Part shown: in pieces, positions 1,526 to 56,300 of the stretch
Layout of the letters: every line of letters begins with the position of its first letter
Numbering within the stretch: position 1 is the stretch's first letter
NCBI RefSeq assembly: GCF_964204645.1
Contig: NC_134025.1
Coordinates: 21,544,001-21,608,000 of the forward strand
Reading direction: 5' to 3'
Source: Tubulanus polymorphus
Taxonomy: Eukaryota; Nemertea; Palaeonemertea; Tubulaniformes; Tubulanidae
Length of the DNA: 64,000 bases
Program-made: the position numbers and the translations under genes
The notes under the pieces: generated by a model
The model's database searches: none
Seen by the model: the letters and a program-made list of their open reading frames with translations, nothing else
Told to the model about the DNA's origin: nothing

Positions 1526-1783
1526 GTTATAATTCAAACACAGAATTATGAACCGAATCACTCATTCATTTTATCTTCAGCTTCCGCAATGAGGGACTAT
1601 ATTACCATATTTTATATTTGATCCCCTAATGCCTTTAACTTCTCGCCGAACCTGGTATTCGAAAGGGTTTCAAATAAAGGTTATGTGGCCTATGCAAGAA
1701 CATGCCTAGGTTGGTCCAATTCATTCTTTGATAAAAAGTATCCTTGACAACATTGGAACAATATCAACGACCATTAATTCAAA

Positions 1784-2419
1784 ATGGTGCCACCAGATAA
1801 GCGTCTCGTGTTGGCAATATTTCTTTTGATTACCACCATCCTTTTATTTGCTGATGGACGGAAGTCGAGTCGAAGGTTTAGTACTAGAAAAATAGCCCAA
1901 CCGCGACGCCGTGATCCAGCTCGCAGAAAGCCAGCAGCACCTGCAACGCATAACTCTGGTGGTAAAACCCGGCCTGCGGCGGGCCCACAAAATAGAAAAG
2001 ACGTCAACAAACCTGGCTCCGCAAACCAACAGAATAAACGTAAAGAAGACACGAAAAACGATGACAAATATTCAAAATCGGATTCGCAGCAGTCGTCTCT
2101 GGACAATTCGGCAAACGAAACACCCCCGGGCGACGACACGGTTTCAACCGACGAATCTTCGGAAAGTATCGTATCTAATATTGGCTCTTTATCCAGGGAA
2201 CTCACTTTCCTGAACGCATCCAACGAAAAGAATATAATACGAATAACCCAAGTTTCCAAGTCGAAGGTTTCCACTGATCTTTACTATGTGCTCAGTGGAA
2301 TGGGAGTTGCAGTTCTGGTAGGAGTGGCCATTTTAATTTGGGAATACGTATCGAAAAAGAAAGATAAAAACAAAGAAAACGAACAAAAGGTGGTTACAAG
2401 TGAAGTTGTTGGCCAATGA
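1784..2419 (+). CDS. Unrecognised intronless type I membrane protein, 211 aa
   Basis: The 211-codon frame starts at ATG 1784 and ends at TGA. Residues 1-25 form a strong signal peptide with the core LAIFLLITTILLFADG. Residues 26-55 are very basic (RKSSRRFSTRK, RRRDPARRK). Residues 75-130 are rich in Asn, Ser, Asp and Glu and look disordered. Sequons for N-glycosylation stand at Asn111 (NET) and Asn144 (NAS). A single membrane segment covers about 167-187, followed by a Lys-rich cytosolic tail (KKKDKNKENE). A poly(A) signal lies 127 bases past the stop. The layout suggests a single-pass surface or secretory-pathway protein. I do not recognise a family and assign no function. It has no visible intron, so a retrocopy or lineage-specific gene is possible. 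Signal peptide, membrane segment and tail together make chance unlikely. Confidence 0.7.
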   Translation: MVPPDKRLVLAIFLLITTILLFADGRKSSRRFSTRKIAQPRRRDPARRKPAAPATHNSGGKTRPAAGPQNRKDVNKPGSANQQNKRKEDTKNDDKYSKSDSQQSSLDNSANETPPGDDTVSTDESSESIVSNIGSLSRELTFLNASNEKNIIRITQVSKSKVSTDLYYVLSGMGVAVLVGVAILIWEYVSKKKDKNKENEQKVVTSEVVGQ

Positions 2420-2940: not shown

Positions 2941-4190
2941 GTTAGTTACGTATTTATATAATGTGGCGCGTTATGTTCGTCAACGCGGAGAGCGACAGAG
3001 AGCGAGAGACAGATGATGAATGTTGTAACGTCACAAAAGACGCGCCGATGAATCGTTTTCGGGATTAGCAAACTGATTGGAAATCCTCACTTGAAAACAT
3101 TTCTCTGGCAGGATCGACGACACAAAGGTAACCGCGAAAACGCTGTCATTTATTTCCTGTTAATAATTGATATACATATAGGGATTAGAGAATAGTATCA
3201 ATTCCTTTGTTCTGACAAAATAGATAAACAACGCCATATCAATAATTCAAGCATCGAGCGACCCAAATACTTGGAATAGTTTCGTGTAAGCACGTACGTG
3301 CTTATTTTCTAGACTAATTTCATGTGCATTTAGGCAGCTAAGCTGATCGAACTATTACTATTATCATTACGACTATCATGAAAAACGTGACTGGTTGATT
3401 ATGATGCATGAAGTAAAAAGGAATAGGCCTATATACATACGTACGGAAAAATACGTTGATTTTTTATTTCACTTATACGAGAGAAATGCCATAATAAATT
3501 CAGCCAAAGATGAAAAGTTCTTGAATAGAAGTGTACGTATTGGGGCAGCGTTTCGGCTAAGGACTGTTGGCCATCATCGGTCGTACTGATGATGGCTATA
3601 ATAGTCGTTAGCCGATTGCTCAAGTACGTATATACTCTTTTACTATCGAACTTTCCGGCTAATTTATTGTGGGATTTCTTTCGAATATTCATCTTAAACG
3701 GATATTGTATATCCTCAAGACTCATTTTTGATTTCATTGCTAGAGCGTATACTCGTTCTTCGGCAAAACTATTTGTCTACTGCTACAATACAGTGGCGAG
3801 TAGATATTCATTCTTTGGGTTTTAGTTTTTAAGTTATGTTTGGAAATGTAGGTGGATGGCACTAGCACATAATGGATGATTACCCATGAATGATCTTAGA
3901 GTAACGAAGAAAACCAATATGACATTAACAATTGTACTGCAATTTACCATTTTTTCAATATTTTTGTCTAGACATCGAAAACACTTCAGCGACTCGAAAG
4001 ATATCTTTAGAATATGTATTTGTAAGGTTTTTCTTAGACATGAGGCCGATTTATAAACCAGTTATTTTGACTACAGATATTACATTTGCAATTAAGGACT
4101 GCTGTTTGCATATATACATCTTTGATTTGATTGCCTTTCAAATCATGCGAAAAACACGTGCCCGAATCCATGTATACTGATATGATATAC
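2941..4190. other. Intergenic flank left of the palindrome
   Basis: Apart from the hairpin at 3533-3631 I see no supported gene. I looked here on the plus strand for upstream otopetrin exons that would complete the left copy and recognised none. Confidence 0.4.
3533..3631. repeat. Long imperfect hairpin, foldback element or pre-miRNA-like
   Basis: The 5' arm 3533-3578 pairs with the 3' arm 3588-3631 around a 9-base loop. Next to the loop the pairing is perfect for CCATCATC/GATGATGG. Outward it continues through CGGCTAA/TTAGCCG to GTACGTAT/ATACGTAC with a few bulges. Weaker inverted similarity extends to about 3485-3680 (AATAAATTCAGCC against GGCTAATTTATT), which favours a decayed foldback element. 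Confidence 0.5.
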
Positions 4191-4624
4191 TTGTCATCGT
4201 CGTTGTGGTACGTCAGACACTATGGTTCTTGGTAAACCTTGGTGTTATGATATCCGGAGCTCACGACTTGCAGGTCGTAAGACGTTGAGTCTCTAGACTA
4301 TACAGCCTATCTGACTCAACTCCAATTCTCCGACCAATTCGGTTTACTTGATATTTATCGTAGATATGAGTACAGTGTTGTGAGGTGTCTGGTCGTCATT
4401 CAAACTGTGACATGAAAATATGTCATCAGACCGCTAAATTGACAATAAACCATCCTAAAAATGATGACAACAATTAATAGCTGCAAAGCTGTTAATTGCT
4501 AAATACTCAATAATTACTGAATCAATACTGTCTATGACAAACAACCCATCTCGTACTCATGTCGCCTGTCACTCGAATTTAGTAGTTAGGAAATAATTAT
4601 AATATATACATTTTGACGATTAAA

Positions 4625-4930
4625 CCATAGCCGCGATCCCGCAAGCGTTTTTGGCCCGTACCAAATTTGGCCCGGAACAACTGTTCACACGGCTGCCAAA
4701 CGGGCCCGTGCCAATTCGGCCCGACCAAAAACGTCGGACCTGGCCCAAATTTAAACATGGGTCAAGATCATTGCGTGCGAATTACATCTGGTTGCGGAAA
4801 TGACTCGTCTCGCTTTGTTGTTTAGCATCGAGTGAGTGGTTTGCGTGTGAACTTATTAGGCACGGACCCATTTTGACTTGGGTCTGATCCGTCGTGCCAA
4901 TTTGGCCCGGGCCAAATCGTGGCTTATGCA
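4625..4930 (+). repeat. Dispersed TTGGCCCG-rich repeat, left-arm copy
   Basis: The segment begins near AGCCGCGATCCCGCAAGCG and ends near CAAATCGTGGCTTATGC, with repeated TTGGCCCG/CGGGCCAA words inside. A diverged inverted copy is at about 42195-42385, which shares CACACGCAATGAT and TTTTGGTCGGGCC and ends GATCGCGGCTGTAGG. The mirrored copy in the other arm is 12199-12504. It lies in intron 4 of otopetrin. Confidence 0.55.
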
Positions 4931-5076
4931 AAAACCCTATTTCCATTACAGTTTGGAATCAGCCGTCCTACCTAGGGTTTTGTCTTTCTCTGTGATGTAT
5001 TCTTGTCAATAACACGTATGGCAGATTTTATGGTTGTTTTCCCGATCACGTAGATTTTCTTTTTCTTAAACAATAG

Positions 5077-6809
5077 TTAGTTGTGAATCGGTGTAAACCT
5101 TTTGTGCGTTTCTGCATGATGCACCTAGTCGCCACGAATCTGGCCCTGTGGTTGTCGGCCACCACCCACGAAACGGTCGCTGATGTTCGCAAAAAGTTAA
5201 CCGGTAAGTAGGATAATGTCATAGAAAAATACGGACAAAATACGATTTTCAAATTTGCGAGTCAGTTCATCATTACATTTCCTTATGGGTAACTTTGATA
5301 CGAAATAAACTAGCCTAAGATATAAATGAACAAAATGTCAAAGCAAACATTTTAGATCATTAATAAGATCCCAAAAAACCCACTATCTACAGATTAAAAG
5401 AATTTATCACCTGACGATGATCTCCAGGGTGAGATCGAAATGACTGAGATCGTCATGTATTCTATATATTTTAGATTGAATAAATAGATTCTTGTTTTTA
5501 AATTCTTTTAATCTGTAGATAGTGGGTTTTCATCTTATTATCATTCACCACGTTTGAATGTGGTTATCGTTCTATTTTAGATCCTTTTTTGGTTATATTT
5601 ACATATATTCAAAAAATATTGTGGACATGTTTCGGCTAACATGTGTTGCCTTAAGTTATAGACCATACGAGTAATAGATGTAGCATTGAGATGAGAAGAA
5701 TTTGATTGAAAAATTGACAAGATAATCGAGCGTTAAGAAATTGAGAGGGCATTTGATGAGCGGTATATGTAAATATAACAAATAGAGGATCTGAAATGTT
5801 TGCCTTGGCGTTTTGTTTAGTTTTGACACTCAAGACTTTTTTTCATTACAAGACTTAAATATCTAAATATCTGCGTTCCATGTCTGTCTAAAGATGGCGT
5901 ATTCTTTCAGAGGAACGTAATGAAACCGACGTCTGTCACTCGGGCGGAGCGTACTACGACAAAGCGGTTGGATTCATCTATCCGTGCGTCGTCGAATACG
6001 GACTGTTCGGGGCTGGAGCGGCTTACATCATGTACCTGAACGTCGGCAAAGGATTCAGTGAACGAACCGTCGTGGAATCCGACACGGACGAACCATCGGC
6101 GCCGTTCTGCGATAAAACAATTTGGCACAAAAGATGTGGCAGGGCATACGTGGGTTTAATCGTGGGTGTGGTCATTATGATTTTGACTTTAATCGGAGTT
6201 ATCGTTTACCATACCGCCTCCGGTAATATGGAATATACATTTTTGGTCATGGAGATTTTGTTGATTATGATTGCCGCATCTGCCGGCATTTTCGTTTACA
6301 TGTTACTGAGGGATTTGAAATACGTAGGTTTGGAGGAAGATAATTTTGATGGCTCGTTGCTCATTATAACGCAGGCGGGCGTCTACGCGCTGTATCTGTT
6401 CATCATGTTGGGAGCTATAAACGCCATCAGAACTGGCGACGAATTCAATTACGGCGTATTTTTCCTGGTACAATCCATCTTATGCATGGGTCAGAGTACC
6501 TTGCAAACTTATACGGTTCTGGACGGGTTCAGTCGTAGCGCCCATAAAACCGAACACGCCGAAAAGAAACCGGGTCAAAATGTGATCACGTTGCTCATAT
6601 GCGTGAATTTTTCCATGTGGATGTCGGCTACGTTTTTGTTCGCAAACGCCGATGATCAGGATTTGTTCTCAGATTATTTCGGTATAATTCCCTGGAGTAT
6701 GATCACGCGGATGTTCTCGCCTTTAGTCATATTCTACCGGTTTCAGGCCTCGATCTGTTTGTCCGATATCTGGGAAAACGCGTACAAAACCCGCGGTAAA
6801 GCGGAGTGA
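5077..6809 (+). pseudogene. OTOP: Partial otopetrin copy: exons 5 and 6 only
   Basis: Exon 5 is 5077-5203, preceded by a pyrimidine tract and AG and ending at a GTAAGT donor. Exon 6 is 5911-6809, running to TGA. They join in phase and encode the last 341 residues of otopetrin, including HLVATNLALW, FIYPCVVEYG and LQTYTVLDGF. The sequence equals exons 5-6 of the minus-strand gene at 10320-16078. The duplicated block begins inside intron 4 and I find no exons 1-4 to the left, so this copy cannot make a full 12-helix channel by itself. The exons are not broken, which implies a very recent event or an assembly artefact. A product could arise only by transcription from a foreign upstream promoter. 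The copy is tail-to-tail with the complete gene. Confidence 0.85.
5329..5817. repeat. Nested hairpins inside otopetrin intron 5 (left copy)
   Basis: Three inverted-repeat pairs are nested or adjacent. A 32-bp perfect pair lies at 5375-5406/5499-5530 (core CCCACTATCTACAGATTAAA). A pair at 5580-5607/5764-5791 has the core GGTTATATTTACATATA. An outer pair lies at 5329-5358/5788-5817 and contains GCAAACATTT. The 156-bp inner unit looks like a MITE that may have landed in an older foldback element. The mirror copy is at 11312-11800. Confidence 0.65.
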
Positions 6810-7216
6810 AAACTTCGATTATTTATATAGAATTTATATGAAGACCTAAACCACGGACGACACCCTCGTCTTCTCAATAAGACCATTAAACCTTCCTAAT
6901 CTCTCGAATCAAAACTCGGGACATAGTTCCGGATTCTAAGCTTTATGACAATAATTAGCTTTAATTAATCACGATACTATTCTTTCTGATTGATACGTCA
7001 TGGGAAACCAACCTGAAACTGGCTGCGGATTTTACTCATCCATGACCGACTGAAACCGACGCTGCAGCATAGTTAGTGACACATTTTTATGTACATCTTT
7101 TCTAAGCGCGAACGAGGCTGTTGCCTGAATACTCATAAACCTATCAACGGATATTTCATTTTGTATTCAATGCTTTATTGTTTATTAATTATTTGTATAC
7201 GGAACCAGATAAGGTG

Positions 7217-7222
7217 AATAAA
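7217..7222 (+). terminator. AATAAA poly(A) signal of the partial otopetrin copy
   Basis: AATAAA lies about 410 bases downstream of the stop at 6809. Its mirror at 9907-9912 serves the complete gene. Confidence 0.5.
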
Positions 7223-7519
7223 GAAAAAAGATAATTTTGAGTGGTTATTTTTTCATTTGCTCTCCACACATTTATCATCCCCATAATGTGGATCTAAAGG
7301 CATTCCGTGACAGCAAAAATACATCCTCTTTATGTATTTTTGGTGACAGATATATTCCGAAAGGAACCATATAAAGTAGGTTGATATCCCAGCTGCTCTA
7401 TCATGCGCATTGTGCGATGATGACGTCAAAGCTGCCCATGTAGCCCCTTGTAGCTCCTTGTAGCCTCTTGTACCCTGACACAGGAATATTTTAACTGAGA
7501 CGAATAGTAGTTTATAGGG

Positions 7520-7642
7520 TAAACTAATTCATTTGACGCACGAGCTTTCGCTACTAGTGTATAGTGGCTTCATCGCGCTTCCTCGCGTGATGAAGCTTCC
7601 ATACACTGCTAGCGAAGGCTCGTACTTCAAATTAACTAGTAC
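7520..7642. repeat. 123-bp near-perfect hairpin (left arm)
   Basis: Two ~58-base halves are inverted copies around CGCGCTTCCTCGCG: CACGAGCTTTCGCTA pairs with TAGCGAAGGCTCGTA, and GTGTATAGTGGCTTCATC with GATGAAGCTTCCATACAC. It is followed by an open frame (7533-7838) that I treat as non-coding. Just upstream, 7438-7475 has three or four 11-base tandem units of the type TTGTAGCCCC. The mirror hairpin is at 9487-9609. Confidence 0.65.
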
Positions 7643-7869
7643 GTCTCGTTGTACTTATTACACACCAGATAACACGGCACCTCTACGTATCTACCTGATT
7701 GAAGAAAAGCAAGTGCCCAGCGCACCAACCGTATCCCCGGAATGCAAGTTGCGCAACGTTCTCGAATTCCATTGCCTTGCAAGTCAATTCGCGAAAATGC
7801 AGTCGCAAAATAAACAACAGTCTCCGAGTAAACCATAAAAAATGATGTATTCGTAAAACCTCTAAGACA

Positions 7870-7953
7870 TTCGATGCTATCTAAATATGTCATCAGATGA
7901 AAGAAATAAGACAAGTTTAAACATATAGACACTATCTAAATATGTCATCAGAC
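7870..7953. repeat. ~55-bp tandem repeat at the inner junction of the left arm
   Basis: The word ATCTAAATATGTCATCAGA occurs twice, about 60 bases apart, with AAGAAATAAGACAAGTTTAAAC between. The arm's identity to its partner stops inside the second copy, right after CATCAGAC. On the other side the same array continues about 30 bases past the arm boundary, into 9147-9175. Confidence 0.7.
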
Positions 7954-9175
7954 TAGTAAACTGTAAATAAACTGTAAACTGATTAGCGTGTATAGACCTA
8001 TATCTTTGTATATTGTACCAAAAACGTATTCATCAAATCACATCCGCTAATAACCTGTCATGCTATAAAATATACGAGCTGAGTGGCAAGGCGTGTAAGA
8101 CTAGGATCGACGATTTGTCACGCGAATTACTCTGTCACTGTGCGTTGATGATGTATGATATATCCCCGTCGTAATTCATAATTCCTATATTTAGATCGCG
8201 TTAAACGTGGAACATGAAGAATATTGATTGCAGAAATGTTGGACAAAATTGCGAATTCTGCAATCATTACTAAAGTTGATACGTGTAAAACGTGATAAGT
8301 AATAAAATAGACCATAACTGTATGATACGTTGAACACTATGGGGAATCTCAGACGTTACTGTGGCAATCAAGGATCGCTAGTAGTTACTCAGTGGGCGGA
8401 AATTTTGGAAAGTTCCCTTTTTGTAAATATCATTGTAATATCCATAATGGAACTGCCCCTTTTCAGGATCCCTTTTCTCCCCCTCCCCCAAAAAAGGTGT
8501 ACGGCCCTGCCAAGTTAATTGAATGAACTCATTTTGACAGCAAAATATTGTCACGCTATCTGGCGGGATAACTGGTGTCGCAGCTCCATTCCGTATGATA
8601 ATACACCTAACACCAAGGAGATTCTGGAATTGACTTATTATTGCCAATTTAGATCAGCACTACAGAGATCACATAAGTAACGCCAGTCGTAGGAGGAAAT
8701 GACGAGTGAAACATGTTCCCTCATTTCAAATAAACGGTCCTTGGTTTGACGTTTAAACACTTCAACGCTTTTTTTCTACGTGTGGTTTATCATCATAATT
8801 GTAGCCAAATTCATGTTGTATTAAACATGCTTTATTGCCAGTTGTCTGACAGCCGTCTCGATGAGCATGTCTCTACCACGCATAGATAAGTCACCAAAAG
8901 ACATTCAGCTATTTCATATGTCAAGTCTGTTGGAATAATATATTTAAGAATATTAGCGCTAGCGACGGGCTTAGTTGGCGGTCGCAATAAAATTGTGTAA
9001 ACACAATCAAACAAATACAAACGCGTTCTTCAAATAGGTGGTATCAAAATGATGGACCATTCTTTTTTTTCATATCAGAAGGCAGGTTTACTAAAAGAAT
9101 TCCCTCTTAAAAGTCAATTGATTTTCTCTTCGGTAATGAAATGAAAGACCATGTTTAAATTTGTCTTATTTCTTC
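7954..9175. other. Unique spacer of the palindrome
   Basis: These 1,222 bases separate the two arms. I find no convincing exon, splice pair or repeat, only short open frames of about 60-90 codons. Near the left end GTAAACTGTAAATAAACTG resembles sequence next to 4431 inside the arm. Confidence 0.6.
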
Positions 9176-12100
9176 GTCTGATGACATATTTAGATAGTGT
9201 CTATATGTTTAAACTTGTCTTATTTCTTTCATCTGATGACATATTTAGATAGCATCGAATGTCTTAGAGGTTTTACGAATACATCATTTTTTATGGTTTA
9301 CTCGGAGACTGTTGTTTATTTTGCGACTGCATTTTCGCGAATTGACTTGCAAGGCAATGGAATTCGAGAACGTTGCGCAACTTGCATTCCGGGGATACGG
9401 TTGGTGCGCTGGGCACTTGCTTTTCTTCAATCAGGTAGATACGTAGAGGTGCCGTGTTATCTGGTGTGTAATAAGTACAACGAGACGTACTAGTTAATTT
9501 GAAGTACGAGCCTTCGCTAGCAGTGTATGGAAGCTTCATCACGCGAGGAAGCGCGATGAAGCCACTATACACTAGTAGCGAAAGCTCGTGCGTCAAATGA
9601 ATTAGTTTACCCTATAAACTACTATTCGTCTCAGTTAAAATATTCCTGTGTCAGGGTACAAGAGGCTACAAGGAGCTACAAGGGGCTACATGGGCAGCTT
9701 TGACGTCATCATCGCACAATGCGCATGATAGAGCAGCTGGGATATCAACCTACTTTATATGGTTCCTTTCGGAATATATCTGTCACCAAAAATACATAAA
9801 GAGGATGTATTTTTGCTGTCACGGAATGCCTTTAGATCCACATTATGGGGATGATAAATGTGTGGAGAGCAAATGAAAAAATAACCACTCAAAATTATCT
9901 TTTTTCTTTATTCACCTTATCTGGTTCCGTATACAAATAATTAATAAACAATAAAGCATTGAATACAAAATGAAATATCCGTTGATAGGTTTATGAGTAT
10001 TCAGGCAACAGCCTCGTTCGCGCTTAGAAAAGATGTACATAAAAATGTGTCACTAACTATGCTGCAGCGTCGGTTTCAGTCGGTCATGGATGAGTAAAAT
10101 CCGCAGCCAGTTTCAGGTTGGTTTCCCATGACGTATCAATCAGAAAGAATAGTATCGTGATTAATTAAAGCTAATTATTGTCATAAAGCTTAGAATCCGG
10201 AACTATGTCCCGAGTTTTGATTCGAGAGATTAGGAAGGTTTAATGGTCTTATTGAGAAGACGAGGGTGTCGTCCGTGGTTTAGGTCTTCATATAAATTCT
10301 ATATAAATAATCGAAGTTTTCACTCCGCTTTACCGCGGGTTTTGTACGCGTTTTCCCAGATATCGGACAAACAGATCGAGGCCTGAAACCGGTAGAATAT
10401 GACTAAAGGCGAGAACATCCGCGTGATCATACTCCAGGGAATTATACCGAAATAATCTGAGAACAAATCCTGATCATCGGCGTTTGCGAACAAAAACGTA
10501 GCCGACATCCACATGGAAAAATTCACGCATATGAGCAACGTGATCACATTTTGACCCGGTTTCTTTTCGGCGTGTTCGGTTTTATGGGCGCTACGACTGA
10601 ACCCGTCCAGAACCGTATAAGTTTGCAAGGTACTCTGACCCATGCATAAGATGGATTGTACCAGGAAAAATACGCCGTAATTGAATTCGTCGCCAGTTCT
10701 GATGGCGTTTATAGCTCCCAACATGATGAACAGATACAGCGCGTAGACGCCCGCCTGCGTTATAATGAGCAACGAGCCATCAAAATTATCTTCCTCCAAA
10801 CCTACGTATTTCAAATCCCTCAGTAACATGTAAACGAAAATGCCGGCAGATGCGGCAATCATAATCAACAAAATCTCCATGACCAAAAATGTATATTCCA
10901 TATTACCGGAGGCGGTATGGTAAACGATAACTCCGATTAAAGTCAAAATCATAATGACCACACCCACGATTAAACCCACGTATGCCCTGCCACATCTTTT
11001 GTGCCAAATTGTTTTATCGCAGAACGGCGCCGATGGTTCGTCCGTGTCGGATTCCACGACGGTTCGTTCACTGAATCCTTTGCCGACGTTCAGGTACATG
11101 ATGTAAGCCGCTCCAGCCCCGAACAGTCCGTATTCGACGACGCACGGATAGATGAATCCAACCGCTTTGTCGTAGTACGCTCCGCCCGAGTGACAGACGT
11201 CGGTTTCATTACGTTCCTCTGAAAGAATACGCCATCTTTAGACAGACATGGAACGCAGATATTTAGATATTTAAGTCTTGTAATGAAAAAAAGTCTTGAG
11301 TGTCAAAACTAAACAAAACGCCAAGGCAAACATTTCAGATCCTCTATTTGTTATATTTACATATACCGCTCATCAAATGCCCTCTCAATTTCTTAACGCT
11401 CGATTATCTTGTCAATTTTTCAATCAAATTCTTCTCATCTCAATGCTACATCTATTACTCGTATGGTCTATAACTTAAGGCAACACATGTTAGCCGAAAC
11501 ATGTCCACAATATTTTTTGAATATATGTAAATATAACCAAAAAAGGATCTAAAATAGAACGATAACCACATTCAAACGTGGTGAATGATAATAAGATGAA
11601 AACCCACTATCTACAGATTAAAAGAATTTAAAAACAAGAATCTATTTATTCAATCTAAAATATATAGAATACATGACGATCTCAGTCATTTCGATCTCAC
11701 CCTGGAGATCATCGTCAGGTGATAAATTCTTTTAATCTGTAGATAGTGGGTTTTTTGGGATCTTATTAATGATCTAAAATGTTTGCTTTGACATTTTGTT
11801 CATTTATATCTTAGGCTAGTTTATTTCGTATCAAAGTTACCCATAAGGAAATGTAATGATGAACTGACTCGCAAATTTGAAAATCGTATTTTGTCCGTAT
11901 TTTTCTATGACATTATCCTACTTACCGGTTAACTTTTTGCGAACATCAGCGACCGTTTCGTGGGTGGTGGCCGACAACCACAGGGCCAGATTCGTGGCGA
12001 CTAGGTGCATCATGCAGAAACGCACAAAAGGTTTACACCGATTCACAACTAACTATTGTTTAAGAAAAAGAAAATCTACGTGATCGGGAAAACAACCATA

Positions 12101-12938
12101 AAATCTGCCATACGTGTTATTGACAAGAATACATCACAGAGAAAGACAAAACCCTAGGTAGGACGGCTGATTCCAAACTGTAATGGAAATAGGGTTTTTG
12201 CATAAGCCACGATTTGGCCCGGGCCAAATTGGCACGACGGATCAGACCCAAGTCAAAATGGGTCCGTGCCTAATAAGTTCACACGCAAACCACTCACTCG
12301 ATGCTAAACAACAAAGCGAGACGAGTCATTTCCGCAACCAGATGTAATTCGCACGCAATGATCTTGACCCATGTTTAAATTTGGGCCAGGTCCGACGTTT
12401 TTGGTCGGGCCGAATTGGCACGGGCCCGTTTGGCAGCCGTGTGAACAGTTGTTCCGGGCCAAATTTGGTACGGGCCAAAAACGCTTGCGGGATCGCGGCT
12501 ATGGTTTAATCGTCAAAATGTATATATTATAATTATTTCCTAACTACTAAATTCGAGTGACAGGCGACATGAGTACGAGATGGGTTGTTTGTCATAGACA
12601 GTATTGATTCAGTAATTATTGAGTATTTAGCAATTAACAGCTTTGCAGCTATTAATTGTTGTCATCATTTTTAGGATGGTTTATTGTCAATTTAGCGGTC
12701 TGATGACATATTTTCATGTCACAGTTTGAATGACGACCAGACACCTCACAACACTGTACTCATATCTACGATAAATATCAAGTAAACCGAATTGGTCGGA
12801 GAATTGGAGTTGAGTCAGATAGGCTGTATAGTCTAGAGACTCAACGTCTTACGACCTGCAAGTCGTGAGCTCCGGATATCATAACACCAAGGTTTACCAA
12901 GAACCATAGTGTCTGACGTACCACAACGACGATGACAA
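9176..12938 (-). repeat. Right arm of the 3,763-bp inverted repeat
   Basis: This is the reverse complement of 4191-7953. It carries exons 5 and 6 of the complete otopetrin gene, the dispersed TTGGCCCG element (12199-12504), the nested intron hairpins (11312-11800) and the 123-bp hairpin (9487-9609). Its outer end at 12938 is inside otopetrin intron 4; beyond it the gene continues through unique DNA to exon 4 at 13357-13197. Confidence 0.95.
9907..9912 (-). terminator. AATAAA poly(A) signal of the otopetrin gene
   Basis: TTTATT on the plus strand is AATAAA on the minus strand, about 410 bases after the otopetrin stop codon, which predicts a short 3' UTR ending close to the palindrome centre. 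Confidence 0.55.
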
Positions 12939-15900
12939 TGATTGGCATTAAACCTTTTCCAATACCTCCCCGTGAAGCCTATTCATGGCCAGACGAAGAA
13001 AGCGATTATTGTGGAGTAGCAACTTGTGGGGTAATAATCATTTTACTCCAAGGTCGCACGAATAGCAACAACCATACTATTTCGTATAATCGACGATTCC
13101 CCTAGATTCCAAGTGGTTGGGAAACAACCAATTATCTTAATTAGCTTGTTTTTTTATATAATTCAAATCAATATCAGTTATCGTTATCGACAGTACCTGG
13201 TGATACTTAACGAAAAGAACAGTCTGCATTACGACGAAAATCACCATTATGCCGTTAGCTACCTGCTTATACAAAGGGTAACAATCGCGCGGAATAACAC
13301 CTTCATACGGCGCTATCAAACGTAATTCGCAGAATGTGATGCTACCGAGCGCGAATACTACAATGAATCGAAATAAGAACAATTATAAATATTTCTTATG
13401 GTCTATGGAATAGAATGTGATTGTTCGTATAACACCTACCTATACCGCCGATTCGATAGTACAAATTAGACCCTTCGCCGCCTAAACAAACCTCTGGGTA
13501 GACCCATTCGCCTTCGGCAATTCGTTCTCTTTCGCTTAGCTCGATTCCGTCGGACCCTGGTACTCTTTGCAAGCTACTGAATTCTATGTTCCATCCGGGA
13601 TTGGGTTGCACTTGAGTCTGGGGTTCCACAGTCGATGGTTTCGGTTTTGCTCGTCTGACCAAGTCGATGAACACGTAAAGCATAGCGCCGATCGCGCAGA
13701 TGAACAGAACTATTTGATAGGACTTCAATGAAAAATAAAACCGGTTCAGTTTTAAATCAAACTTTAGTACAAAACCTAAATGAAAATAGATAAAACTTTT
13801 TAGAATGATATCAAGGGAAATTTTCAAAACTACGATATTATTTCTTATGCACGTTGCTTGCTAAAAGTCACAGATTGTCCAAGGTGAATATTGTGAAAAA
13901 CATCAAGGAAAATTTGAAATATTCTAAAACTTTTGTTTTTTCAACACAAGAATATTGAAGTATCTTATTGAGTTTTGTTGTTAAAATCAAATTTGGGGGA
14001 TTTTTAACAAGGGGGAATTATTACCTGTTACCACCCTTATCAAGACACAATATCAAAGGTCCCCCGAATATAATTTCGAACTATTCTTTGAAATTATGGC
14101 AAGCAAAGGGTTTCTTTCCATTTAGTATAATAGATATTTCCCTTGCTGGTAAGTTTATTTATGTATGATAGTATATACAGATAATTCAACCACGTGTATC
14201 AATATAGAGTTATAATAACAAACCCTGGCCTGAAAAAACGAGAATGGAACCCAACCCATTACTTCATAATGTGATAACATATACAGAAATTGGACGAATT
14301 TCACCCTGGATTTCAATGGCACTACATGGAGAGGGGGATGTTGTCCGAGGGCTATTAACGTGTAAGATATCAACCAAAGATTAACATCATCATTCACTGC
14401 TTAAATGCTACGTACGCGAAGGCAAATGCAACTACTTAATGATTCCATTTGCTTTTAATGAGTGACCTGGGACCAATGTTTGTTATTGAAATGAGCCGTG
14501 CTTGGAATTACAGTTAGGCACAAAAGGGGCTTATTTACAGACGAAAGGGGTCGGAAATGATTTGTTTATGCAGCACGGTTCTTATTGTATTTTTCTAATG
14601 ACAGCGCAGGAGAGTTCAATCATCACTTTTTGCAACGGAGGGACTATTAGTTATGGTTCCGGAAGCAAAAGCGCCGGTAGTTATTTCGTGAACGACCTAA
14701 GAATATGAAAAGAGTCTGCGCGGTAATCAATAGGTGAACCCTGGTACTGATATTTATATAACTGGGTCGACGAATTCAAAAGCACTTGACTACCATATTT
14801 GCGCGTTCAATGCGACACGTATATGTCGAATTAATGAAGAGATATACGAACAGTCGACACGCGTAAGCCCCGAAGGAAAAACATGCTATGAAACAAGTTT
14901 TGAAAAAAGCATAAGCGTAAGTGGCAAAAACTTAGATAGAACTTATAGACAGTTAATGCATAATGCGTATAGTCCCTTGCGATATATTGTAGTCTACAAC
15001 TTGGGGTCTATAGAATGACAAAGCACGTACCTCGGTGTAATAGCCAGATATATCGATTGAGTTGGTTAAAGCATCGCTAATTGGAAAAACTACCCCGAAA
15101 CTGCACAGTATCAGACAGTAGAGACCACACGTAACTCTTGTAGCCGCCTTTCTGAAATTAAAAGAACACAAGAAAACTACAGACGCAAACAGATAAGAAC
15201 GGTATATTTTGACCATTACCAAACAACACATTCTACTAAATTCGAAGAAATTTTGATTGGCTTCATACTAAAGTAGTAGTTAGTTTCCCGACGAGAGTTC
15301 AGTTAAGTTCAATATACTTGTTTCTAGACAGAAAAGTCTCAAAAACGGAACTCAATAAAGCTTACGCATTGTTTTTCGTATCGTCATAGCAATCTCTATC
15401 GAATATCGTTTTTTACATTCACCGGGCGCATGGAAAAATTCCGCGAATAATTCAGAGAAATTTTCTTATGATATTACTACGAGACCGGGGTAATCAAAAA
15501 CGTATAGGGGCAAAGTTTAGGTGACGTTGATAGAGTTTCGAACCACAAACGTTTCGGCCATGGCCGTCGATGCGTAAGCAAACCTTCGAGATTTTATCTC
15601 AAGAATTTCAAGAGTGAGATTTCTGTATTTATATACGGTTGACGTGCATTTGAGTGTTTCATTTGACTGAAAGTGACGTTCTTCAGTGACACGTTACTCC
15701 CACTCGATGCGGCGTTTACGAAGATTCAAATATCGTGTCGATACATTAAATATTAACACATCACACACACATATGAAGGCAGGCTTAGCAGCGATTTTAT
15801 ATATAGTTCGGTCGAGAGAGGTAAACATATGTATGAGTTATGCACTGTTGTTTTCGCGTAGAAAAAAAAAAGTGCTAAGCAAAGCTTCGGCACGCGAATT

Positions 15901-16078
15901 TATATACGCAAATCTTTGGAAAATGTCTCGAGGCATCATGCATAATCAAATCAAATAACCAAAAATCTACTTACTTTTCACGTCGACTTATTATTTCAGT
16001 TCTCGCTAACTGCAACTTGAATTTTTTTGTGAATTTGCTCAACGGTTGAGCAGCGTTACTACTCACGCTATCTTCCAT
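10320..16078 (-). CDS. OTOP: Otopetrin-like proton channel, six coding exons, 564 aa
   Basis: Otopetrins are proton-selective channels of the plasma membrane with 12 transmembrane helices. Coding exons on the minus strand are 16078-15975, 15151-15031, 13722-13440, 13357-13197, 12052-11926 and 11218-10320. All junctions are GT-AG, the phases agree and the sum is 565 codons including the stop, normal for the family. The start ATG (MEDSVSSNAAQPLSK) opens exon 1. Family signatures are GLYCLILCSFGVVFPISDAL (helix 1), GSNLYYRIGG and VFALGSITF (exon 3/4), HLVATNLALW (exon 5), and FIYPCVVEYGLFGAGAAYIM and QSTLQTYTVL (exon 6). Exon 5 could also start three bases later. Exons 5-6 lie in the right palindrome arm and are duplicated at 5077-6809; exons 1-4 are unique. 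NCKX lies 2 kb upstream on the same strand. Which OTOP paralogue this is cannot be told by eye. Confidence 0.92.
13723..15974 (-). other. Otopetrin introns 1 and 2
   Basis: Intron 1 (15974-15152, donor GTAAGT, acceptor TTTCAG) and intron 2 (15030-13723, donor GTACGT) surround exon 2 (15151-15031). I see no repeat with clear termini in them and no further exon; phases require none. Confidence 0.6.
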
Positions 16079-22700: not shown

Positions 22701-25700
22701 AACAATAAAAGAGGATCTCGATAAGTTCTAATGAAATCAACGAAATCGTGCTATTCTTTTTTAACACGTGAAAAATTGCATTATTAGTCTCACACCTTCA
22801 ATCACCCGCCTTTCAATTAAGTACTCATTTCTGTAATACGTTACGTACCTGGTTGGTGTATTGTACCATTTGTTTCACCTAAACACACAAAAACAAACCA
22901 AGAAGCTGAACTCATATGAACGAAATAATTGAGTTTTGAAAAAGACATAAAAATGAATCAAGCATAAAAGTTCACGTAATCTACTCGGTGTGTAAATAAC
23001 AAAATGATGATACATTGAGATTTTACGGCCGCGTTAAGAAGATAGTGTTAGATAAATGTAGATAGATATACGGGTGATTTTAATGAACTTTTCGACCTTG
23101 ATCTCTTCAAAAAGCTCGTACAAGCATTCGTTGCAGTTATAACATTCATACGCGCCAACATCCTACCTCGGCAGGGATTCGAACCTGATTGCATCGCTAG
23201 ACTCAGCCACGACACGAAACCCTGCCACGCTAGACTAGGTGCGCAGGTACATGCGCACGTTTGCCGCGCGGAAACTTGTGTTACCGCTGAGGCAAATTTC
23301 ACGGATAGAATATAGATGTATGGTGGCTGATTCGGGCCATACTAAAAAGTTTTTCTGTACGGCTAAAGCAACGATAAAAAAATTATCACATTGGCCCGTT
23401 TGTTGGTTTTCTCGCGCGAGAATTCAAAATTTTTTGAATTCTCGCGCGAGAAAACCAAACTTTTTGAATTCTCTCACGAGAAAACAAAAAGTATTGAATT
23501 CTCGCGCGAGAAAACCAAAATGTTTTGAATTCTCGCGCGAGAAAACCAAACAGCGGGCCAATGTGAAAATTTTTTATCGTTGCTTTAGCCGTACAGAACA
23601 ACTTTTTAGTATGGCCCGAATCAGCCACCATAATAAATGGAAAACCCGGGTTAAAGCAGGATTTCTGATTGGTTAATAATGAAATCATCTAAGCTGCGCG
23701 TGTACCAGTGCGCCCGAGCTAGTGTGGCAGGGTTTTGCGCCGTAGCGGTCTCGATGCTATCACGTTCAAATCCCTGTTGGGGGAGGATGACGCACCAATA
23801 CCAGAGCATCAAAATCGCTGAATTCAGCCGATGAAAATGCCACCCAGTATTGATTGATACGACTAAGAAAACAATTGATAATGAGAAAGACACTTTCGAT
23901 GAACATGCTGTTAAAATGTATCAAAACATGCTCCGCTGGAAACAAATACGTCAGGCTCAAGTTTGAAAAGAAGTTGAAAATTATACAAGTCGAATTTATT
24001 TCAAAAGAAAAGAATGAAAAACCTCGTCTTCATACAGGAAAAAATTGTGAGAAAGACTATAGTACCGTAATTTCCGTAATACTTCCTGTCACCAACAGGC
24101 GGCAGTATGCTCGTTTCGGTGCCTGCGTCGGCGTCCTTTTCCAGATTGAATTTCTCGTTGAAAAATTTCTGCAGTGTTACGTTGTACCTGTAGAATTGCG
24201 AAAATACACGCATTCAGTATGCGACGCAGAGCTCGATAAGATATTGGCATCCTCACGCGTCCCATATTTTTTCTCCACGAGGCGTGTTGGATGGTCTCTA
24301 TACAGGGGCGGATCTAGTGAAAGTGGAAGGCCGGGGTCCAGAAGAAAGGACTGAGGCATTTTTCAGATGAAGGACGGCGTCATAGGCTGTAAGCGGAGTC
24401 CTGTTAGATTTTTATTGAAGAAATAAATCCGAAAATATGCAATTTCTGAAAGGATGTGCGTCAAATTCACAGGTTTTATTGATCTTTAACTTGGCAGCCT
24501 CAATGGGAAGGCAGGGGTACGGACCCTCGAGGCCACAACCTAAATTCACGCAGCTTCTCGACAATGATAAGCGTTCCTATTTAAAATTCGGACTTCTTTA
24601 ATTAGATATTGTTGCATCAACTTAATATTTGCCATTAATAAATTGGTTTATTCGTTATTTTCGAAATGAAACATGAGATTTACAAGATCGGTTTTTGTTC
24701 ATGCGACAGAACACTGTATAATGAATCAATGTGCCTACCTCATTAGGGCGATGTAACCAGCATATAGGATAAGCATGATTAATGATTCGTACCATGTAAT
24801 CACGGAGTCCATAATGCTCTGAAATTAATAGAGTATTCAATTTCAAATTCACGGAGAACAACGAGGTCTATCGTATATAGATATAGACCTAAACCGGAGA
24901 CCCACGCTATTTTAATCAAGAATGTACACATCAGCGGGAGGTTTTGGCTTAATTAAAACCATCCAGGATCGGGTAGGAAATGACATGTCGTCTGGCGATC
25001 GGCCTTTTCATGCCAGTCACACGTTGAGTTTGCCGTCGGAAATAACAAGCCGTACGGTTGGGTGGACGTTGAGAAAGTTGATAAGGTACACGACGCGCCG
25101 ACACCGCGCAAACAATCGTTAAGGGAAATAACTATGCGTCAACGTAGGCTAAATTGAGGCTAAATTAGCAAAACAACACCTTCCATGATACGTAGCCGTA
25201 AGACAAGCGCAGGACAAGATGATGACGGAAGTAATTCGTACAGCACGGAAACCATTGCCTTTTTACGAAGAAGGTCATCCGCCTTCGTGCACGAATTGGG
25301 CTAATATCGCCATGTATTCGCGGGATAAACTAATTGATCCAACTGACTGTACTCCCGTACGTCCGTCTGCATTGCTCCGCCTCTCTGACTGATTTTGAAC
25401 ATTGACGTAACTATATATCTAAAGTAATGAATCTAGATAATTGGAAGAGTGTGTCCGCCTCTCTCTCCCTCTCTCTCTCTCTTACCAGTATCAGCGCTAT
25501 AACCGTTATACAGTACGCCCCCGAGTCACGCAACAGCGGCCATTTACATAACGGTACCACCTAAAATAGAGAATGACGGTAAATGAATAATTCAACGCCC
25601 GTTTGACCAATATCTGTAAAAGAACCCAAAAGAAAATCCTATAATTAGGAATCAAGAACCCTTAAATACTTTATTGTATAATATAACTTACGGCTCCGGC

Positions 25701-53300: not shown

Positions 53301-56300
53301 TTTAAAGTATAAAATCACGACGCAAAAGTTTACTTAGAACTTCCAACCCGAAGCTTTATCACTGAAAATACATATTCACATAGTACATAGCCTTGGTTTA
53401 ATCTAATAAAAATGTATATATGGATTAAACCAAGAACAAATATTTATATCTACACCGTCGTACGTGGTAGAGCTTTGGGCTTGATGTTCTATAAGTTCAC
53501 TCTTGTATTATGATCTCATATTCATTCAATCCAATAATGATAATTTATTTTCGTAAATCATGATGCAATAATGCATGTTTATACATAAAAATGTGGTATT
53601 ATTTTCTTTCAGGTGAATTAAAATTGTTAATTGGATTCACCTAATCTAGTGTGATCGTGATAAATCATGTAGGGGGCCCTGGCTTCCATAGACTACTTAA
53701 AGCTTCCATTAGTATTGCATTATCATTATATGACTACTGACACTTAGTAATCTTCATGATACCTTCTATCAATCATCCCGACACTCGTGTTATAGAACAT
53801 TTTTAAGCGGTCAAAAGCTGTCTCCGTGTCCAAGACAGTGACCTCAGCCTGAATTCTTCGTTTAAAAAAACTAGCCCAATTAAGAGGGCTGGAGTTTCAA
53901 TATCACCGGCTAATTTAATTTACAAATGAATGATAGCTATATTCAGTATAGAAGATGGAATTTATCAAACGAAGGCATCGTCTTTTAATCGATAGCACTA
54001 TACTATTAACCGATCAAAACTGCGATTACCATCATGGAAGGCAGCATGATGCGCTTAATTCCGTGAATAAAATACGACTCGAAACAATTAACCCCCCGTG
54101 ACCGTATCTGTATATACGATGTGTTCAAGTTGGGCTAAAAGTCCGACGATGCAGGGAATCATGGAAACAAAGAAATATGGAAACAAACATGTTTCCCCAG
54201 CGTTTCCCTGTGTTGTGAGCGTTTACGAGAAACGTAGTTTCGGGAACAACGATTCCGGAATCAAACATGCATGTTTCCGTGTTTCTGTATTTCCCTGCAT
54301 CGTACATGCGTTGGGCTTAAGGCCTTTTAATCACTGGCCCTTTTTAATCATCTTTTCGGTTAAGCTTAGATGTAGTAGAAAATTTAATACCAGGCTTTCG
54401 AATTAGAAGCGTTATTAACGCCTACGCTTATCACATGTAAACGGCCTGATGGTGACGTAATTCGACATCGCATATTCATCTATTCATTGGTGATGCGTTG
54501 TTAATGAATCGCCATTATTATTATGTATTATCAGCTTGGGATCTGTAACACCGTTGCCATTGGCATCAGGTTTGCGTCTCCTTGTCTCCTAAGCTGTTCA
54601 TTATAGTTTATATTAATAGAAACAATGGTATAGGTTTCAATCAAAATGAACAAATGTATACGTAATAGATGTATAGATAGAATATGCTTATATCATCTTT
54701 TGTCGATGTAAGAAGTCCGTAAGGCAGAATCGTGCTTTCTAAATGCTGTGCAATTCTAAATTCAGATTCAGATTTTATTTGCTCTGCGTATATATAAACA
54801 TCCAATTCCGATTCAGATTCAGATTTTATTTGCTATATATTTTTCAGCAAATAAAATATATATATATACGTATAATCGTTACTTGCGAGAACTTCTTCGT
54901 GCGTTCGGTCGACTTTTTCGGTCAAAAAGGTCAAGGGCGTGATCCATCGATCAAAAGTGTCGGTACCTATTTATATATATATATTTACATGCACATCTCA
55001 GCACCGATCAGATTTATTAAAAAAAGGTACCGACACTTTTGATCGATGGATCACGCCCTTGACCTTTTTGACCGAAAAAGTCGACCGAACGCACGAAGAA
55101 GTTCTCGCAAGTAACGATTATACGTTTTGTTTTATATATACATGTAGCCGATTCTACCCCCGTCGATAATTAACACGCGAACTGCGATTACGTGAAAATG
55201 GCTTTCTCTTTCTGATCAGCTCTTATCCGTCGTCGGATGTTACGCCCATTCGCCGCGGTCACGATCGTCGAACTAATCCCACTTACGCAAAGAATCGGTT
55301 TAATACGCGCACTGATTATCGTAATACCCCGGTTCATCACGAGACGTGAGGTGATGCGCTACTCGCCATCAATACGAGGTGTGTAATATCTACGACATAA
55401 GACCGCAATTGGGTTATTAGCTTCAAGGTACGCAGGGCAAGACCCCAAAAATAGTACCTAGAATGAAAAAGAGCCCCCCCCCCTTAAATGCTGCCACGAA
55501 AGACAGGTAATGAATTACGGTTGTAAGCATGGGATCCGTGGGTCCTGAGAGACAGATTGGTGATGAAATAGGGGATTCCCAGGACTTTCTTGTCTGGAGC
55601 AAGGGCACCAATTCGGCTCGGATGTACTGATGGCTTACCTGTACTGGGAAACCCCGATCCTTTTTAAAGGTCTGATTATTTACAAAATTCGATCAAGTAT
55701 GTGGGGGTGAAAACCATTTCAACCCGCTTATATACGATCTTAACGCTAGAATTTCTTGTTTTTACTCTAGGATATAGAAGATTTTGGAATAGTGGTCTTG
55801 AGCTTCTATTCAACAATATGATACGGACATAATTTCTCCCTATACCGCATGTATAACATGAATCAGATTGAATTAGTGATTGAATGAAAAATTCGATCCG
55901 AAATCTATCCGCAAGATCATCAGATTTTCGCGTGTATCCCGAGATGTCGTCATTCGTATTGAATTTCACCACGGTAGAAATCAGTCACTCTATAAAAACA
56001 GCCCCCGGAAAGTTGGTTTATTTGACATTCGTTAACTATTAATCGCCTACTCCCATCATTATTTCCATTGGGAGACGTCGGTTTCCGCCTCGTAAAAAGG
56101 AAAGGAAATCATCCACAGAATTCATGAAGCGGTCATTGTGAACCCTCGGGGAATAAAGAGAAGGTTATCGTCATATATGAAGATGGGATATCAGTACATG
56201 GGTCAAAGGGTATTCTTATGTATGCGTATCATGTATGGAAAATATCTAAATTGCGACGATGATATAACAAGGATACAAAAGTTCTTTATAGAATATGGGT

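Follow-up and report, generated by a model that had tools for sequence, protein, structure and literature searches.

Inverted duplications in which a copied segment faces its source across a spacer are already known from human and yeast DNA. Human fold-back inverted duplications (Hermetz et al. 2014, PMC3907307) have a disomic spacer that ranges from 766 to 70,466 bp with a median of 3,428 bp, and short inverted homology is found at the spacer edge. Templated inverted insertions have been reported at yeast double-strand breaks (PMC11724301); one end is formed by fold-back priming and the other by end joining. Near-identical arms that carry genes are also a property of the VCY palindromes of sex chromosomes, which gene conversion maintains (PMC6790999). 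In Drosophila simulans, some of the young hairpin-RNA loci originated from partial duplications adjacent to the gene they target (PMC10317233).

The locus described here lies in a window of 64,000 nt from Tubulanus polymorphus (C1:21544001-21608000), in an assembly of 267.8 Mb and 77 contigs, several of which are chromosome-sized. A whole-arm comparison found the reverse complement of 9176-12938 to be the same as 4191-7953 over all 3,763 bp, without a single mismatch or indel, so that the limits originally given for the mirror-image arms were exact. Between the arms lies a spacer of 1,222 bp (7954-9175), a single-copy sequence with one full-length match in the genome. The identity stops abruptly, as mirror identity past the outer edges is 26% over the first 50 bp and inside the inner edges 32% over the first 50 bp, both at chance level. 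Each arm has roughly 2.7 kb of non-coding sequence, hence constraint does not explain the identity of the arms.

The structure shares with the human cases an inverted copy beside the original and a spacer that is single-copy and at least about 1 kb long, the 1.2 kb found here being within the human range. The short inverted homology at the spacer edge of the human cases may have its counterpart here in a 16-mer and an adjoining 13/19 resemblance, both read from the present allele. In contrast, the human events are megabase-scale, terminal and accompanied by deletion or translocation (PMC3907307), while the palindrome in T. polymorphus has arms of 3.8 kb and is interstitial. An interstitial inverted copy is what it has in common with the yeast insertions, together with fold-back and end joining as we propose them below, but the yeast insertions are mostly 5-34 bp (PMC11724301) and the copy here is 3,763 bp with a 1.2-kb loop. 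The 3.8-kb interstitial event is thus of a size between the human and the yeast cases.

Otopetrins are proton channels, and the right arm is part of a complete otopetrin gene on the minus strand (10320-16078). Splicing by hand gave six coding exons at approximately 16078-15975, 15151-15031, 13761-13440, 13357-13197, 12052-11926 and 11218-10320, where the acceptor of exon 3 (13761-13440) is tentative. The resulting 577-aa model has no internal stop and matches the Pfam family Otopetrin (PF03189) with E=8e-70 and 236 bits, above the curated cut-off of 27.8; its match in PDB is Otopetrin-2 (E=6e-19), with OTOP2, OTOP3 and OTOP1 as the best relatives of solved structure. The AATAAA poly(A) signal of the gene (9900-9916, minus strand) is inside the right arm and is mirrored in the left.

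As the outer edge at 12938 falls in intron 4, the left arm (4191-7953, plus strand) contains the remainder of intron 4, exon 5, intron 5, exon 6, the 3' UTR and about 0.7 kb of downstream sequence, without exons 1-4. Exon 5 of the partial copy is found at 5077-5203 (plus strand, mirror of 12052-11926, Pfam match at C1:21549056-21549205), and exon 6 at 5911-6809 (plus strand, mirror of 11218-10320), where the frame is open and gives a Pfam match of E=4e-52. The original prediction of a right copy within a complete six-exon gene, and of a left copy that ends in intron 4 and holds exons 5-6 only, is borne out by these models. It also spoke of a gene both split and duplicated; duplication holds for the 3' part (exons 5-6), whose copy is inverted, but the gene to the right is intact and has not been split. 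Apart from this point the palindrome is present in the assembly as first described. The left copy probably lacks the otopetrin promoter, and since exons 1-4 are missing as well we consider it most likely a pseudogene at birth.

A Pfam search of the genome detected other otopetrin loci on C1, C2, C4 and C5, and the genome search returned no nucleotide identity of similar order between the arm and any of these. On C5 an otopetrin-like match to the N-terminal half (C5:13100445-13101058) contains in-frame stops, with an otopetrin exon some 26 kb away at C5:13126579; the match could be a pseudogene or intron read-through. In the window, an open frame of 213 aa (1778-2419, plus strand) has hydrophobic segments at its N- and C-termini and matches no Pfam family. 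It lies upstream of the partial copy, which is likewise on the plus strand, and transcription from it could extend toward the left arm.

The sequence around the right inner edge indicates which copy is the original. An imperfect tandem duplication of 54 bp (9151-9252, plus strand; units 9151-9197 and 9205-9252, 94% identical) spans the inner edge of the right arm at 9176, and the right end of the spacer, 9151-9175, therefore belongs to a repeat that continues into the arm. With 94% identity this duplication must be older than the arms, which are 100% identical, and 9151-9175 thus adjoined the right arm before the event. Together with the open six-exon model, this identifies the right copy (9176-12938, minus strand) as the source and the left copy as derived, and it follows that the novel junction is the one between 7953 and 7954.

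At this junction the 16-mer AAATATGTCATCAGAC (7938-7953, plus strand) ends exactly at the left inner breakpoint. Across the genome it has four sites, two in each arm (4416-4431 and 7938-7953, and as reverse complement 9176-9191 and 12698-12713); we had considered it as a dispersed repeat, which was ruled out as its sites are confined to the palindrome. The left end of the spacer, which begins TAGTAAACTGTAAATAAAC (7954-7972, plus strand), agrees at 13/19 positions in fixed register with 4432-4450, the sequence following the other copy of AAATATGTCATCAGAC at 4416-4431. A score this good or better was obtained at 53 of 127,962 window positions (4e-4), a significance that becomes near 1e-3 as two or three registers were possible. 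The resemblance is suggestive of the spacer's left end being another local copy of the AAATATGTCATCAGAC repeat. Taken together, the 16-mer at the inner junction and the 13/19 resemblance beyond it point to an inverted repeat that probably flanked the spacer before the event: an inverted, diverged copy of the local repeat would have preceded the spacer on its left side, and the switch would have occurred in the best-conserved part of that copy.

We suggest that the palindrome probably arose recently, when repair of a DNA break duplicated part of the gene in inverted orientation. The DNA would have broken between the present positions 4190 and 7954, whereupon the resected right-hand end may have folded back so that the short inverted repeat with AAATATGTCATCAGAC paired with its partner at 9176-9191. 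From there a polymerase would have moved outward for 3,763 bp, copying the 3' end of the otopetrin gene, then exon 6, exon 5 and a portion of intron 4; the newly made end would then have been freed and joined to the left-hand end at 4190. Such a sequence of steps would produce the order left flank, inverted copy, spacer (as the loop), original and right flank. Short inverted repeats are also used in MMBIR and ODIRA, and a spacer can be left by these when a secondary rearrangement follows (PMC10766186). A replicative route of this kind, or template switching at a fork, in place of a resected double-strand break would otherwise end in the same final sequence, indistinguishable from that of break repair; ODIRA, however, begins as an inverted triplication, of which the locus bears no trace, and we regard a replicative origin as very improbable.

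The absence of any difference over 3,763 bp limits the divergence of the arms to at most 8e-4 (95% upper bound). If rates between 1e-8 and 1e-9 per site and year are assumed, the duplication would have taken place less than about 40-400 kyr ago. Arm-to-arm gene conversion, as documented between palindrome arms (PMC6790999), would also yield near-identity, and an older palindrome may have been kept identical in this way as on mammalian sex chromosomes. To mimic youth, conversion could have acted only if it reached both edges without leaving a remnant difference. An old palindrome is expected to keep differences at its edges, but the identity here is flat at 100% up to both of them and then falls to chance. 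Moreover, the arms are short, and unlike the conversion-kept palindromes of the VCY type on sex chromosomes, the locus shows no sign of age or conversion. Long-term conversion is on this evidence a distinctly unlikely explanation.

A transposon as the carrier of the arm was rejected, as dispersed repeats occur inside the arm and none was detected at either arm edge. Those inside the arm, both with many copies in the genome and mirrored in the right arm, are at 4629-4920 and 5354-5579, the latter region having 32-bp perfect inverted repeats of terminal type (5375-5406/5499-5530).

Inverted repeats with perfect arms are well known as artefacts, and the left arm might be absent from the animal if template switching during amplification, or a mis-join, had created it. 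Perfect identity is what such an artefact would give, and short inverted repeats prime chimeras in vitro too. Fold-back artefact reads amount to approximately 0.55-0.6% of nanopore genomic data and are common in some nanopore sets, whereas PacBio HiFi data are practically free of them (PMC12870357). A simple fold-back read has one junction, and its arm continues to the end of the read; here unique sequence bounds both sides. Both sharp junctions, 4190/4191 and 7953/7954, would have to be chimeric, and at the outer one a search for homology between the left flank and the donor found none. The arm also sits in the interior of a chromosome-scale contig. Genome-wide, the first 1.8 kb of the arm has two full-length matches, both in the palindrome, and one each was found for the spacer and for either flank, the remaining matches being short dispersed repeats. 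No alternative haplotig, whether containing or lacking the left arm, turned up in the assembly.

It also counts against an artefact that no second perfect inverted repeat of at least 700 bp was detected in the window and in a 200-kb sample taken from four other contigs. The longest of the remaining inverted repeats in these 264 kb measured 500-1,200 bp with 84-99.5% identity and had a transposon pattern. It should be noted that 264 kb is a small sample, which shows only that such palindromes are uncommon. All in all we find an assembly or library artefact unlikely, albeit the least so of the alternatives. The original prediction had left a recent inverted duplication, gene conversion and a library or assembly chimera side by side; the flat 100% identity up to sharp edges, the clear source copy and the repair-type signature at the inner junction favour the first, and each of the other two is less likely.

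If the palindrome is real, it represents a very young gene duplication in inverted orientation whose two junctions are preserved in the sequence, and the allele is likely still polymorphic. Such cases show how kilobase-scale inverted copies originate in the germ line, and they fill the size gap between the megabase human events and the tiny templated insertions of yeast. Inverted copies of this kind are also raw material for pseudogenes and hairpin-RNA regulators.

The two otopetrin copies are convergent across the spacer, and the arm, holding exons 5-6 of the neighbouring gene, forms an inverted repeat matching a possible target, as hairpin-RNA loci do. Minus-strand otopetrin transcripts reading past the poly(A) signal at about 9.9 kb, through the spacer and into the left arm, would fold into a stem of up to 3.7 kb. 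With the D. simulans loci (PMC10317233) the palindrome shares an inverted partial duplication beside the parent gene and the potential for long dsRNA against that parent, a likeness at the level of the DNA sequence. The genome also contains a match to the Dicer-dimer domain (C1:3371735-3371875). We mention, as a speculation with a slim chance of being right, that the locus may be a newborn hairpin-RNA locus, whose read-through transcript would be cut by Dicer into siRNAs able to silence otopetrin, and perhaps related paralogues as well, making the palindrome a segregating silencing allele.

Some smaller repeats were noticed elsewhere in the window. Two short tandem-repeat clusters with CCGACATACCGGCA-type units occupy 1041-1520, where 1067-1169 is inverted relative to 1413-1515 with 81% identity. 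Self-complementary hairpin elements of 88-90% identity, probably MITE-like, are present at 23319-23632 and 54868-55125, and the former holds a 30-bp tandem array.
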